From: Gammaproteobacteria bacterium
Lineage (GTDB): Bacteria > Pseudomonadota > Gammaproteobacteria > Pseudomonadales > Azotimanducaceae
DNA length: 47,319 nucleotides
Reading direction: 5' to 3'
Assembly (NCBI GenBank): GCA_028821405.1
Contig: JAPPGK010000110.1
Location: 1-47,319, forward strand
Below the pieces are notes generated by a model that worked only from the letters and a program-made list of their open reading frames with translations, had not been told where the DNA came from and searched no databases. The position numbers were made by a program, and so were the translations under genes. Numbering within the stretch: position 1 is the stretch's first letter; every line of letters begins with the position of its first letter. Positions 25,624-30,259 of this stretch are shown in pieces.

Positions 25624-26787
25624 ATGGGTCGGCGAATATCCGGGCGCGTCGAGGTTCCTGGCGGGAAGCGTGAGCTAGTCCGTAGATTCTGGCTTGGGAT
25701 GGGGATCGCGGCGGTCGTGGCCTTCGTGGTCGTTCCCTTCGGCTACGCGATAACCGGACTCCATACCGACATCTTGATAGGCGCCGGCTGCGGGATTGCC
25801 ATCGGTGTCGGCATCGGCCTGCGGGGCGGTCCGCAGAGCGGCCTGTGGACCGGCATCCTGGTTGGTTCGATTGTCGGCGTCGCCGCCGCACTGCTCGCCG
25901 GGTTGGTGCCCGGAGACCCCGATGGCATCCTGGTGCCCCAGGTTCTGGCCTTGGCCGTTGGTTTGATCGTCGGGTTCCGCGGACCGTCGATCACCGGGTA
26001 CCGCGATCTAAGCCGCGAATCGTTGATCGTCTCGGTCCTGCTGGCCTTGGGGTTGCTGCCTGCTTGGATCGCCCAGGGCCGCTTCTCGGAGGGCTTGCTG
26101 GATGACAGTACGCTCTTGCCGGCGATTACCATCGCCTTCTTCGCCTGGATCGCATTGACCGGCGGGTTGCTGAGCCACCGCCGCGAGGGGTGGGTCGACA
26201 CGCGCCCGCCGGCACTGCTTGTCGGGGGTGCGGCATTGCTGCCCGCGTTGTTGGTGGTCGGCATGGCGACAGGCGCACTCCAGGAGGGGCGTGGTCTCTC
26301 GGGCATCGACCTCGTCGTCCCGACCGTCGTGATTCTGGGCTTCTTCGTTGCCGCTCCTGCGATCGCGTTCCTCTTCGGACGCACCGTCATCACCTGGCTT
26401 GAACCGCGGCTTCGCGTTTACGGACACCTTGTCGACTATCTTCGCGTCATGTGGATTCCCATCGGGGCGTTCGCCGTCGGCTACCTGACGATCATCGGCC
26501 TGTTCGCGGGGTTCTACGGCACGCTCGAGCGCTTTCTACCGGGTGCTTTCTCGAACGCCGGCACGGGAATCACCGATTGGCTGTCGTTTTCCTTCTTCGC
26601 GGCGCTGGGCCAGGACTTCGCGGGCATGAAGCCGGTTTCCGTCAGTGCGAAAATACTCGTGGGCACCCACCTGATCCTGTCGGCGGGTTGGGCGGTCGTC
26701 TTGTTTGCCGCCGTGATGTCATCCATTGGGCCGAAGCTCGACAAGATCGCGCAACGTCTCGACGGTGAGGGCGACGATTCGCCATAG
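25624..26787 (+). CDS. Polytopic membrane protein with channel-like C-terminal pore segment
   Basis: A 387-residue inner-membrane protein with an excellent ribosome site (GGAAGGAGG before the ATG). About nine to ten hydrophobic segments are visible. The Gly-rich N-half (IGAGCGIAIGVGIGL, WTGILVGSIVGVAA) is followed by a C-terminal unit of TM (MWIPIGAFAVGYLTIIGLFA), a short re-entrant-like loop (WLSFSFFAALGQDFAGMKPV) and a last TM (LIGT-type turn, then LSAGWAVVLFAAVMSSI). That layout resembles the two-helix ion-channel module (Ion_trans_2), but the TxGYGD filter is absent; ALGQDF occupies its place. It could be a channel of altered selectivity or merely similar in shape. The next gene, a CmcJ-like enzyme, starts 91 bp downstream. 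Confidence 0.65.
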   Translation: MGRRISGRVEVPGGKRELVRRFWLGMGIAAVVAFVVVPFGYAITGLHTDILIGAGCGIAIGVGIGLRGGPQSGLWTGILVGSIVGVAAALLAGLVPGDPDGILVPQVLALAVGLIVGFRGPSITGYRDLSRESLIVSVLLALGLLPAWIAQGRFSEGLLDDSTLLPAITIAFFAWIALTGGLLSHRREGWVDTRPPALLVGGAALLPALLVVGMATGALQEGRGLSGIDLVVPTVVILGFFVAAPAIAFLFGRTVITWLEPRLRVYGHLVDYLRVMWIPIGAFAVGYLTIIGLFAGFYGTLERFLPGAFSNAGTGITDWLSFSFFAALGQDFAGMKPVSVSAKILVGTHLILSAGWAVVLFAAVMSSIGPKLDKIAQRLDGEGDDSP

Positions 26788-26878
26788 GGGTTTCCCCCGG
26801 CCGCTCCCGGCCGCAACGCTTCCACCAAGCACCTGCGCGGTCTGCCATAATTGGGTGTTTAACACCAAGGGTATGCCA

Positions 26879-28150
26879 ATGGGCCGACCGAAAGTCATCG
26901 CAAACGAGCGTCGGGCGGATGCCGTTCCGCCCGCCTACGTCCCGTCCTTCGAACTCACCAAAGGACAGCCACCGCCGGTCGCGGCCAACGGGGGCCTGTC
27001 GTACATGTCGTTCGACAAGGACGGCGATGCCGGAACGGTTGCAGCGACCGTGGACGCGTTCGCCCTGATCGCCACGGGCGAGGGCCAAGCCGTGATCGAC
27101 ATGATCGAGAACGCGCCGCCGGGGCCCATCGAGACCCAGTGGGGGCTCGGGTTCCGCACCTACGACGAGTGCCTGGCCTACATCCGGGACACGAACATGG
27201 AGGCGCCGGAAGGCGGCTTGGCGCTGCCGCTGCGCTACACCGTCCACGAGGCCCCGTCCTATTCCATCGTCTCCTCCAACGCCCTTTGGCGCGACGGCGC
27301 ACGCAAGGCCGACCAGATGGCGTTGCGCAAGGAGGAGCGGGACATTGGACGACGATGTCTGTATTTCCCCCAGGTGCTCCGGGATGCGCGGCGGATGCAG
27401 GAGTACTACCCGGGTCTTAAGCCTGACAGCCCCGAATGCATGGACAGGCTCGGCGTGGCGCTCGCGCATTGCGAGTCCAAGTGCGAGAACTTCTACGACT
27501 CGGCGGAAGTGGAACGGGTGTTCTACCCGGAGATCGAGAAGCTACTCCTGGACTTCTTCCCCGGCGCGACCGACGCCCTCGTCTACAACCACGACGTGTT
27601 CAACAAGGACTACCAGGGAGATCGCACGGAGGATCAGGACAACAAGAATCCGGGTGTGAACCGGGGCTACGCGAACCTCGTGCACAACGACCTGAACGAC
27701 AACAGCGGTCGCGTGCGCTGCCGAGAGTTGCTTACCAGGAACCTGCGCAATTTCGGGCGGACCCAGCACTACACCGAGGCGCAAGCCGACGCGAAGATGT
27801 CACGGCGTTTCATGTCGATCAATCTCGCAAAGCCGATGGAGACCGTGGGACAGTATCCCTTCGTGCTCTGCGCCTGGCCTTCGTTCGCCGACCAGCCCTA
27901 CATCACCAACTACCGCATCTACGACGACCGGGTCGGCGAGACCACGCGCTTCACGTATCGGCCCGACCACGAGTGGTACTGGTTCCCCCAGCAGCAATCC
28001 ACCGAGGTCTCGATGCTCAAGTGCTACGACTCCATCACCGACGGTTCCGTCTCGCGCTGGTCCTTCCACACGGCCTGCGTCGATCCCACGGCACCGGAAG
28101 ATGCGCCTTGCCGCAAGAACGTCGTTGTCAGGTCCTTCGTCTTCTTCTAG
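26879..28150 (+). CDS. CmcJ/AsaB-type non-haem oxidoreductase family protein
   Basis: A soluble protein of 423 residues. The ATG at 26879 fits the AAGGG ribosome site better than the ATG six bases earlier. The C-terminal half matches the CmcJ/NvfI/GA4-desaturase-like family: YANLVHNDLNDNSGRVRC (putative iron-binding His-x-Asp), RRFMSINLAKPMETVGQYPF, then VLCAWPSF and YRPDHEWYWFPQQQSTEVSM, followed by WSFHTACVDPTAPEDAPCR. Family members catalyse oxidations or methoxylation steps in natural-product pathways and occur widely in proteobacteria and fungi without known substrates. No biosynthetic cluster surrounds this copy. It is convergent with the GH127 gene, and the space between them is a five-hairpin array. 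Confidence 0.78.
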   Translation: MGRPKVIANERRADAVPPAYVPSFELTKGQPPPVAANGGLSYMSFDKDGDAGTVAATVDAFALIATGEGQAVIDMIENAPPGPIETQWGLGFRTYDECLAYIRDTNMEAPEGGLALPLRYTVHEAPSYSIVSSNALWRDGARKADQMALRKEERDIGRRCLYFPQVLRDARRMQEYYPGLKPDSPECMDRLGVALAHCESKCENFYDSAEVERVFYPEIEKLLLDFFPGATDALVYNHDVFNKDYQGDRTEDQDNKNPGVNRGYANLVHNDLNDNSGRVRCRELLTRNLRNFGRTQHYTEAQADAKMSRRFMSINLAKPMETVGQYPFVLCAWPSFADQPYITNYRIYDDRVGETTRFTYRPDHEWYWFPQQQSTEVSMLKCYDSITDGSVSRWSFHTACVDPTAPEDAPCRKNVVVRSFVFF

Positions 28151-28155
28151 GAAAC

Positions 28156-28293
28156 CTACGTTCAAGTCCGTCCCTGGACTTGAACAGTAGCGAAACAAAT
28201 AGTTTCGCTCGCAAATTCAATGGCTTACGCCATCGAATTTGGCGGCACATCCCTGTGCCGCGCTAGGGAAGGTCTTGTTCAGACCTTCCCTAG
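28156..28293. other. Array of five consecutive distinct stem-loops between convergent genes
   Basis: Essentially the whole gap folds into back-to-back hairpins. H1: ctac+gttcaagtcc (28156-28169) with ggacttgaac+gtag (28176-28190, one bulged a). H2: agcgaaac (28189-28196) with gtttcgct (28202-28209). H3: caaattc+atggc (28212-28224) with gccat+gaatttg (28229-28241), one internal mismatch. H4: gcggcaca (28242-28249) with tgtgccgc (28254-28261). H5: ctagggaaggtct (28263-28275) with agaccttccctag (28281-28293). Loops are 4-6 bases. The five stems are unrelated in sequence, so this is not a tandem repeat. H5 covers the GH127 stop codon. A bidirectional terminator, a structured RNA or a cruciform-forming site are all possible. 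Confidence 0.8.
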
Positions 28294-30149
28294 TCGGCGT
28301 AGGCACACCTGAAATAGGTTCGCGGGCCCGAGCTGTCGGTGCATGCCTGGTGGTAGGGCACAAGGGCGATTCCCGTGTCCGCGATGGAATGGGAACCGTC
28401 CGTAGACCGGCGAAGCATCGCGAGTGCCTCAGCCGGAGTCCGCCCTTCGAAAGGCTCATCGCCCGGGATCGACGAGACCTTCTGCGCTAGCGCAACCGGT
28501 CCTTGGCTGAAGGCGATCCACCGCTGGCCACCCTCGCCTTCCTGAACGTCCATGCGGAGTTCCGGCTCCGCCTCGATCGCCAGGACATCGCCGCGTTCCC
28601 AACGGCGGCGCAACTCGAAGAAACCGCGTTCGTTCGTGGTGACGTCCACGCCCGCGCCGTTGACCCGCACTTGCCGCAGGACCACGCCGTCCGGGAGCCT
28701 GAATTCGCAGGTGAAGGTTCGCCGAACGCGCGTCTCGAACCGGATCTCGGTCGTCGGATCGGCAGGGAAATCCCCCTCGACGGTCAATACACCGCCGCCG
28801 AACGCTTCGCTCAATTCCACGCGGCAAGCCGCCAAGGTGCCGATCGACAGATGGCCGTCGATCTCCCCCACCAGATGTGCCGCTGCCATCTCCATCGCCC
28901 GCGGCATGCTCGATGCACAACAGGTGATGGTGTCGACATAGGCTGGCTCGACCTCGTTGGGAGCCGTGTAGTAGCACCACCGCATCCCGTCGGCGTGTTG
29001 GTGACCGTGGAGACTGTTGTATAGGGTCGCCTCGGCTGCATCGAGGTACTTGCTCTCCCCTAGGACCTCGAAGAGTTGCAGGCAAAGCTGTATCCAGGTC
29101 GTATCGCAGCATCCCTCCACCGAGACCTCCCAGGGATCGAAATCTTCGGCCCGGGCAAAGCACTCGCGGTTGCCGTTGTAGTCCGTGTGACGGGTCCACG
29201 GACCGCCGGTGACGAGAAGGTGCTTCGCCTTGATCTCGTTCCAGCCGTTCACCGCCGTACGGAGATACTCGTTCTTCCCCGTACACCGATAAAGGCGCAG
29301 ATACCCCAGGAGGTTGGCCATGATCTGGTAGCCCTTGCCTTCGCCCGGATGGACCACGCCGCCGCCCGTGAGGAGGGAACTCATCAGCCGCAGGCCGGGA
29401 TTGGCTTCCATCCGCTCCACGATATGCTCGGCGAAGGCGAGATACCTGGCATCGGAGGTACGCTCGTAGAGCATGACGATGGATTCGAGCAGCGTCGTTG
29501 CCGAGATGCCCTTGCGCGTTCCGTAGTGCGTGAGGTCGGCACCGCCTTCGCCGTAGACCTCGATCAAGAGGTCGGCCATTCGCCGGCAAGCGTCGACGAC
29601 GGCCTCGTTGGGGAAGACGCGCTCAAAGGTGAGCAGCCCGTAGAGATTGTAGCGATGCGTCCACGTGTCCCACCCGCCACGCCGCTTCTTCGCCTTGCCC
29701 CTATCCATGTCGTCGTGCCGTTGGGCCAAGGGCACGTCTTCCGGGAGCGCCACGAATGTCTGCTCGGGACCGTAGGTGCCGAGATAACCATTGGGCAACT
29801 GGGTCGCGAGCAAACGCTCGACGCTCTTCGCAAGTGCCCGCGCGAGCCGGTCGTCGCCGGTCATCAACCAGGTGAGCGTCGCGGCGTGCAGCCACTTGCC
29901 GAGGTGTTCGCCTTGCCAGGGGTGCGCGCCCGGCCTGTTCTCGAAGCCATCGATGAGATAGCCGGCCTCGGCCATGAACCAAAGCCGATGATGGCGCCAC
30001 ACCTCGAGTCTCGCGCCCTGGGATCCTCCCACCGCCACTGTCCGAAGAGCGCGCCACTTGTTCACGAGCCAATCACCAAGCCGCTGACGAGGAGCTGTCG
30101 ACTCTAGCGAGTGCGTCCTCCCCAGACAACGCGGCGTTTCCAAACCCAT
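28290..30149 (-). CDS. Glycoside hydrolase family 127 (beta-L-arabinofuranosidase-like)
   Basis: A cytoplasmic-type glycosidase of 619 residues; the ATG at 30149 is preferred over the longer frame to 30236. It has the GH127/DUF1680 layout: an alpha-barrel N-half (GEHLGKWLHAATLTWLMTGD, QLPNGYLGTYG, WDTWTHRYNLYGLL) and a beta-sandwich C-half. The zinc site of HypBA1-type enzymes is recognisable as E345-x-C347 (WEVSVEGCCDTTW) and the pair C410-C411 (DTITCCASSMPRAM), the second pair including the nucleophile Cys of the family. An extra Cys (C348) follows the first. No signal peptide is seen. It would release terminal L-arabinofuranose-like sugars; the exact sugar is not certain. It is divergent from the PhyH gene at 30260. 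Confidence 0.9.
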   Translation of the reverse strand: MGLETPRCLGRTHSLESTAPRQRLGDWLVNKWRALRTVAVGGSQGARLEVWRHHRLWFMAEAGYLIDGFENRPGAHPWQGEHLGKWLHAATLTWLMTGDDRLARALAKSVERLLATQLPNGYLGTYGPEQTFVALPEDVPLAQRHDDMDRGKAKKRRGGWDTWTHRYNLYGLLTFERVFPNEAVVDACRRMADLLIEVYGEGGADLTHYGTRKGISATTLLESIVMLYERTSDARYLAFAEHIVERMEANPGLRLMSSLLTGGGVVHPGEGKGYQIMANLLGYLRLYRCTGKNEYLRTAVNGWNEIKAKHLLVTGGPWTRHTDYNGNRECFARAEDFDPWEVSVEGCCDTTWIQLCLQLFEVLGESKYLDAAEATLYNSLHGHQHADGMRWCYYTAPNEVEPAYVDTITCCASSMPRAMEMAAAHLVGEIDGHLSIGTLAACRVELSEAFGGGVLTVEGDFPADPTTEIRFETRVRRTFTCEFRLPDGVVLRQVRVNGAGVDVTTNERGFFELRRRWERGDVLAIEAEPELRMDVQEGEGGQRWIAFSQGPVALAQKVSSIPGDEPFEGRTPAEALAMLRRSTDGSHSIADTGIALVPYHQACTDSSGPRTYFRCAYAD

Positions 30150-30259
30150 GCCAAGACCTGCCCAGACGGTGGTGTTTTTGGGTGAACCCCGTAGAGCGTG
30201 CGCCGTCCTTTGCAAAACCGAGGCGATAAAATCCACTTATCCCATTTGGAGCACCAAAG

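Follow-up and report, generated by a model that had tools for sequence, protein, structure and literature searches.

REP/BIME, ERIC, BOX, RUP and Correia elements are bacterial interspersed repeats. MITEs are usually regarded as empty insertion-sequence shells; for those of IS5 type, YTAR targets are taken here to be a family trait and the PF05598 domain to be the marker of the family. A further point of comparison is provided by RNAs that bind CsrA/RsmA proteins. The high-affinity RsmE site is described as an ANGGAX hexaloop carried directly on a stem, and RsmZ stem-loops as having a C-G closing pair (PMC4005645). The CsrA SELEX consensus is given as RUACARGGAUGU and the CsrB repeat as CAGGA(U/A/C)G (PMC7652899), and such GGA hairpins are reported generally to come in pairs (PMC4383904). 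The intergenic hairpin array analysed here is probably a MITE with a conserved RNA cargo that carries twin candidate CsrA/RsmA sites on its minus strand. Far from being an empty shell, it has a filling that is conserved by compensatory change across bacterial classes and that fits the recognition code of a global RNA regulator.

The window, i.e. the whole stretch of DNA analysed (47,319 nucleotides of a gammaproteobacterial contig), was initially annotated as containing five different hairpins packed end to end at 28156-28293, between convergent genes. The five stem-loops are real, being recovered both by an arm search and by DNA folding: the region 28140-28310 folds at -54.2 kcal/mol, while 200 shuffled versions reach -19.5 +/- 2.9 (z -11.8), not one of them equalling the native value. 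H1 (28160-28185, minus strand) has a 10-bp stem and a 6-nt loop and reads, as minus-strand RNA, GUCC[AGGGAC]GGAC, an ANGGAX hexaloop on a C-G pair. H4 (28242-28261, minus strand) has an 8-bp stem and a 4-nt loop and reads GCAC[AGGGAU]GUGC as minus-strand RNA. Between them lie H2 (28189-28209; 8 bp, 5-nt loop) and H3 (28212-28241; 13-base arms with one mismatch, 4-nt loop), both without GGA, and the array is closed by the terminal hairpin H5 (28263-28293; 13-bp arms, 5-nt loop), formed by the right terminal repeat (GGAAGGTCTGAACAAG, reading inward); none of these three is assigned to a strand. Comparison of the arms bore out that the stems are mutually unrelated in sequence, which rules out a tandem repeat. 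The reported absence of a T-run also held, in that no clear T-run was seen and a simple scan gave a single weak terminator-like site (28250-28269, plus strand; 0.3 +/- 0.7 sites in shuffled sequences). A search of the window against Rfam gave no family at gathering score, and a known RNA family was rejected at that level.

The right limit of the annotated interval is correct. The left limit is not: the unit reaches back to 28147, because the left tip CTAGGAAACC... is part of the element. The whole copy therefore occupies 147 bp (28147-28293, strand not assigned), including two 4-bp CTAG target-site duplications, likewise without strand, at 28147-28150 and 28290-28293. The neighbours are indeed convergent. 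The left duplication gives a TAG stop (28148-28150) to the plus-strand gene at 26726-28150, which has no Pfam match at E 0.001, and the right duplication gives a TAG stop (28290-28292) to the minus-strand GH127-type gene at 28290-30236, whose transcript would enter the GGA-bearing strand of the element.

The element is dispersed. With the hairpin region as query against the 4.77 Mb, 122-contig genome that contains it, the best 40 of 44 candidates gave 38 match rows, 30 of them near full length: 29 are 94-100% identical and match the 147 bp to within one or two bases, and one is divergent (82%), the 8 further rows being partial. Similarity among copies stops at about 28147 and 28293, and the flanks vary from copy to copy; these unrelated flanks rule out a host-gene leader or riboswitch. 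Most copies have CTAG at both sides, three have CTAA at both sides (L019, L022 and L023) and in four the tetranucleotide differs between the two ends (L027, L038, L043 and L051). One locus, L032 (C78:16810-16959), is of the subfamily found in G009 and is about 82% identical to the window copy, so that two subfamilies occur together in this genome. Copies L033, L036 and L072 lie directly against a different dispersed repeat (GAGCCGTTCAAGAG...GGCTCGCGTACTCGCGAG), which gives the impression that one of the two served as a landing site for the other, and in L034, L049, L062, L073, L074 and L078 internal deletions take out one or two hairpins or parts of them, the rest being intact.

The tips of the element are shared with insertion sequences of the genus. 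Read inward, the right tip GGAAGGTCTGAACAAG is identical over 16/16 positions to one end of the PF05598 insertion sequences L101 and L103 of genome G013, and matches their other end at 15/16; both insertion sequences have CTAG on both sides. The left tip GGAAACCTCTGTTCAAG is an imperfect match to the ends of PF05598 insertion sequences of the genus. PF05598 is present in 10/16 genus members; a profile search of the 122-contig assembly itself gave no PF01609 or PF05598 transposase, and a DDE_Tnp_1 helper sought in that genome had no match. Blastn searches gave no match of the window element in phages and none of a relative's element in plasmids, which sets aside phage or plasmid cargo.

Insertion can be followed at copy L006, where five relatives have a left-flank match and two of the five show a clean empty site. 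In these two, G003 (L265) and G011 (L267), both flanks abut at CCCCTAACCGG, the empty site is CTAA and the flank alignments overlap by 3 bases, fitting a duplication. Both neighbour genes of L006 terminate in the duplicated tetranucleotide, and on our reading the CTAA of the relatives also overlaps two convergent stops. The three other relatives have a small indel at the site (L266), 171 other bases (L268) or no right-flank match (L269). At L018 the relatives are without the element but the site is changed by indels and other repeats, and it was rejected as a clean empty site. At the window site, the plus-strand gene of relatives G003 and G004 ends in TTCTTCTAG with no element after it; the native CTAG stop is kept and the remainder of the gap is different, so that the window insertion offers no clean two-state comparison. 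Other short palindromic repeats (GGGACGGG...CCCGTCCC, GGGCGACCACAAGGGTCGCCC) occupy the same intergenic gaps in sister genomes (L247, L248 and L271-L273). The dispersal of a short, non-coding 147-bp unit, the CTAG/CTAA duplications, a right tip shared with an autonomous element and the CTAA empty site in two relatives together identify the window array, at the level of sequence, as one copy of a MITE.

Related elements extend well beyond this genome. A DNA search found them in 6/58 genomes, own included, and a scan of named genomes with an H4 string gave at least 110 stretches; the matches listed come from Halomonas, Microbulbifer, Rhodanobacter, Lysobacteraceae, Sedimenticola, Thiotrichales, Pseudohongiella, a MAG labelled Deltaproteobacterium and others, the strain Halomonas cupida DSM 4740 being among the bearers. 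Many of the matches listed have the same hairpin order with different stems, as seen on folding 32 chosen loci. Nine sequences, from the genus and from G028, were used to train a covariance model of H2-H4. The model finds the element of G019, which lies outside the training set, at 74.5 bits; L042 and 99 of the 110 loci found by the pattern together yield 144 matches. At E 1e-5 the model identifies bearers in 49/369 genomes of the class (at most 12 candidates scored per genome) and in 41/398 genomes of a phylum sample (at most 11 scored per genome), own included in each case; all but two of the 41 (39) carry labels that place them outside the class. At least 10 matches occur in 17/49 class bearers and in 12/41 phylum-sample bearers. 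The label of CAMAVY01 (L109, L150 and L158), a MAG labelled Klebsiella pneumoniae, looks doubtful given its family content, and L156, labelled Clostridia, has a single palindrome only, without the array.

Ten loci of G446 and L261-L263, all outside the class, fold into the same array, and all 13 were judged by eye to have GGA in the H1 and H4 loops; for H1 the simple stem finder picked other registers in most G446 copies, so that by itself it does not confirm this reading. L260, also from the out-of-class set, has GGA in H1 and in H2. The out-of-class H4 stems are mostly unlike the GGCAC type (for example, GCGAGC[CATGGACG]GCTCGC in G446) and loops of the CATGGACG type are kept. In G446 copies L304, L305 and L309-L311 a second partial or whole copy adjoins the first, as if in tandem. 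G028 copies L058, L083, L085 and L086 are longer, with extra hairpins between H3 and H4, which suggests modular growth of the array; by eye, the extra hairpins of L058, L083 and L086 have GGA loops on the minus strand. The ends vary too. Sorted by a crude pattern, 42 cluster representatives comprise 18 with IS5-like ends, 4 with GTYGAAAAA, 2 with TGTCGCAAA and 18 others, the last group including the window's own family (missed by the pattern), truncated copies and Rhodanobacter/Lysobacteraceae forms without obvious terminal repeat. With several end types, or apparently none, around one core, the core does not seem to be tied to one transposon end.

The stems change in a compensatory manner. 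An alignment of 11 elements, taken from the genus and from G028, shows two-sided changes at 15 of 52 predicted pairs, although H5 of G028 is misaligned in it. Fitting 144 matches, 129 of them distinct, to the model gives an alignment in which each of the 30 core pairs varies on both sides and 95.9% of cells are paired. Its covariation score is 0.510, compared with 0.125 after shuffling and no more than 0.094 after sliding; since this alignment takes in opposite-strand matches and leans to structure, the controls outweigh the raw values. Moreover, stem mismatches are asymmetric between the strands. Read on the minus strand, G.T outnumbers A.C by 53 to 6 in 84 unique elements selected by their minus-strand fold, and with strand-neutral selection by 44 to 6 in 57 unique elements (p 3e-8) and by 23 to 4 in 29 representatives (p 3e-4), counts made less independent by shared ancestry. 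In the same strand-neutral set, 22 clusters have at least one G.T mismatch and 6 at least one A.C. Tolerance of wobbles on a single strand is what would be expected of an RNA made in that sense, although selection acting on one DNA strand is a possible source of the bias. Such patterns indicate that the interior of the element is a conserved RNA-like array. The structured RNA that had been listed among the initial options, beside a bidirectional insulator, a cruciform or protein-binding site and a template-switch product, is well supported by the covariation and the one-strand wobbles, and the refuting condition named in the initial annotation, relatives without conserved or compensating stems, did not hold.

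The loops follow a different rule. On the minus strand, H1 and H4 of the window both present ANGGAX on C-G pairs, the published high-affinity RsmE/CsrA form, and H4 matches the ACARGGAUGU part of the CsrA SELEX consensus. Conservation of these loops was assessed after a packing filter that passes 115/224 loci (own genome 22/36, relatives 19/48, pattern loci 53/110, class loci 21/30) and yields 120 four-hairpin elements in 42 clusters, so that the loop counts describe well-packed copies. Four truncated or misparsed clusters (L034, L067, L077 and L078; five elements) were set aside, leaving 38 representatives and 115 members. H4 was the search anchor and is excluded as evidence; H1 is absent from both search string and model. 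All 38 representatives have GGA in the minus-strand H1 loop (A(N)GGA in 30) and none in H2 or H3, and on the plus strand one H2 loop has GGA. Among the 115 members the minus-strand counts are 113 for H1 (the exceptions being L154 and L192), 1 for H2 and 0 for H3. In the strand-neutral set, with nothing dropped, GGA is found in H1 in 27/29 clusters (exceptions L154 and L229), in H2 in 2 and in H3 in 2, with one plus-strand H2 loop. The H2 loops with GGA are those of L192, L207 and L260. When no packing filter is applied, the 110 pattern loci divide into 62 with a GGA-loop stem at the H1 distance, 19 whose stems there all lack GGA, 23 without a stem there and 6 that stop short of it; some of the failures are truncated copies or wrong stem-finder registers (L115 and L108 have a GGA loop by eye) and others are unexplained. 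The H2 loop is often conserved too (minus strand AACCACGCTT, AATCGCACTT), with no known partner.

Other observations bear on the CsrA/RsmA assignment. For the longer G028 copy L086, the Rfam hit of lowest E is RsmV, which lies on the minus strand of the element at E 0.0027 and 19.2 bits (gathering score 100), and an unrelated hit, ar7, scores higher at E 0.014; RsmV is likewise the lowest of four sub-threshold hits on the window H4 (28244-28260, minus, E 0.057). The array has multiple A(N)GGA hairpin loops on its minus strand (H1 and H4), as do CsrB/RsmZ-type RNAs, and since no Rfam family reaches gathering score and the RsmV hits are weak, the element is not filed as a member of that type. 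CsrA (PF02599) is present in its genome and in 76/80 bearing genomes tested (70/72 of the good ones); the CsrA model has no hit in G065, G150, G180 and G239 of these 80, two of the four being at least 90% complete. Several observations weigh against the assignment. No sigma-70-like promoter was found within 28050-28400, and the RNA would therefore derive from neighbouring transcription. Neighbouring genes show no orientation bias towards the GGA strand, either in the genome itself (left plus-strand genes 21/27, right minus-strand genes 17/27, the latter reading into the GGA strand) or at 25 loci of five other genomes. The stems exceed most CsrA SELEX ligands in length, and very stable stems may disfavour binding, as discussed in PMC7652899. 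The GGA conservation could also result from descent alone.

It is rather unlikely that this is an ordinary MITE whose hairpins serve as a bidirectional terminator or mRNA 3'-end protector and whose GGA loops have no protein partner. Placement is the main argument in its favour, together with the proposal that hairpin clusters found elsewhere are terminators, as put forward in PMC8355165. Of 31 loci in the genome itself, 28 have the full pattern (L025, L030 and L031, which lack it, were left uncounted); with gene calls that here, as in all placement counts, are rough and based on codon usage, none of the 28 lies within a called gene, and flanks are convergent at 14/27 copies against 18/88 other gaps (binomial p 3e-4), or at 13/26 when L020, where a plus-strand frame enters the element, is omitted. 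This excess agrees with the bidirectional insulator suggested in the initial annotation. Elsewhere the agreement fades: of 40 loci in five other genomes, 6 have no anchor, 8 are one-sided and 1 is in a gene, and the 25 judged comprise 8 convergent, 8 ++, 6 -- and 3 divergent flanks, a weak convergent excess over 9/45 other gaps. A terminator, moreover, has no need of A(N)GGA loops in two set places or of wobble tolerance on one strand, and no clear T-runs occur in the array.

The preference for G.T over A.C could stem from selection on one DNA strand if the hairpins acted as strand-specific single-stranded DNA structures for transposition or replication-coupled insertion, as in the IS200/IS605 or REP systems. 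This seems improbable: the tips in common with PF05598 elements, like the YTAR duplication of 4 bp, speak for a DDE pathway that acts on double-stranded DNA, and one core is found with several terminal repeats or apparently none. Still less probable is an origin by template switching, an idea raised in the initial annotation, in which quasipalindrome correction would keep the palindromes perfect with no selection for structure. Switching gives compensatory pairs without function; single copies in the genome itself, moreover, bear uncompensated changes. It nevertheless predicts that loops drift faster than stems, and leaves unexplained that the H1 GGA is kept in 113/115 filtered elements whose stems differ; it also predicts mismatches without the strand bias that is observed.

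A MITE carrying a CsrA/RsmA-binding RNA would account at once for GGA loops in two fixed places, for stems that vary and for the asymmetry between the strands. Such an element would be a short non-autonomous transposon moved in trans by an IS5-type transposase, with YTAR targets and a 4-bp duplication. Its cargo would consist of the conserved four-hairpin RNA (H1-H4) and the terminal-repeat hairpin H5, the meaningful strand being the minus strand, on which H4 and H1, set apart from each other, would display a pair of CsrA/RsmA-type A(N)GGA loops. Transcription from a neighbour into the element, here from the GH127 gene, would produce an RNA that folds in the order H5-H4-H3-H2-H1 and binds a CsrA/RsmA dimer. 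Once folded, the RNA could serve as one of many dispersed decoys or form a nuclease-resistant 3' end with CsrA bound to it, and the double CTAG ends would allow the element to occupy the stops of convergent genes without harm. If CsrA binds, sites of post-transcriptional control would be spread by transposons, each insertion adding CsrA sites to genes or titrating CsrA. More speculatively, it is quite possible that these are phylum-wide selfish elements carrying a selected RNA decoy for CsrA/RsmA, the core having been adopted by several unlike transposon ends, and that the insertions, dozens in each genome, together make up a distributed sponge which could retune carbon, motility and biofilm control or derepress the element's own mobilisation.

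Neither the element nor a CsrA-binding MITE is described in the titles and abstract openings searched, subscription journals being mostly beyond reach; the closest known systems fall into three groups. As dispersed palindromes between genes, the copies resemble REP/BIME, ERIC, BOX, RUP and Correia elements. They differ from REP/BIME and their kin in having ends shared with PF05598 elements and a YTAR duplication, which point to a mechanism other than RAYT (Y1 tyrosine) mobilisation, and in having five different stems in fixed order, an architecture kept across classes. Likeness to the CsrB, CsrC, RsmX, RsmY, RsmZ and RsmV decoys lies in stem-loops with A(N)GGA loops, two per element and more in G028 copies, and in the weak RsmV hits on the minus strand. 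Unlike these decoys, the element is mobile, present in tens of copies per genome, has fewer GGA loops and is without a visible promoter or a family match at gathering score. With MITEs of IS5 type it shares its short, non-coding, multi-copy nature, a terminal repeat that also occurs in insertion sequences of the genus, duplication of a 4-bp YTAR target and empty sites in relatives. It departs from them in that its terminal repeats themselves fold into hairpins and in that its interior is a covarying hairpin array common to elements with unlike terminal repeats.
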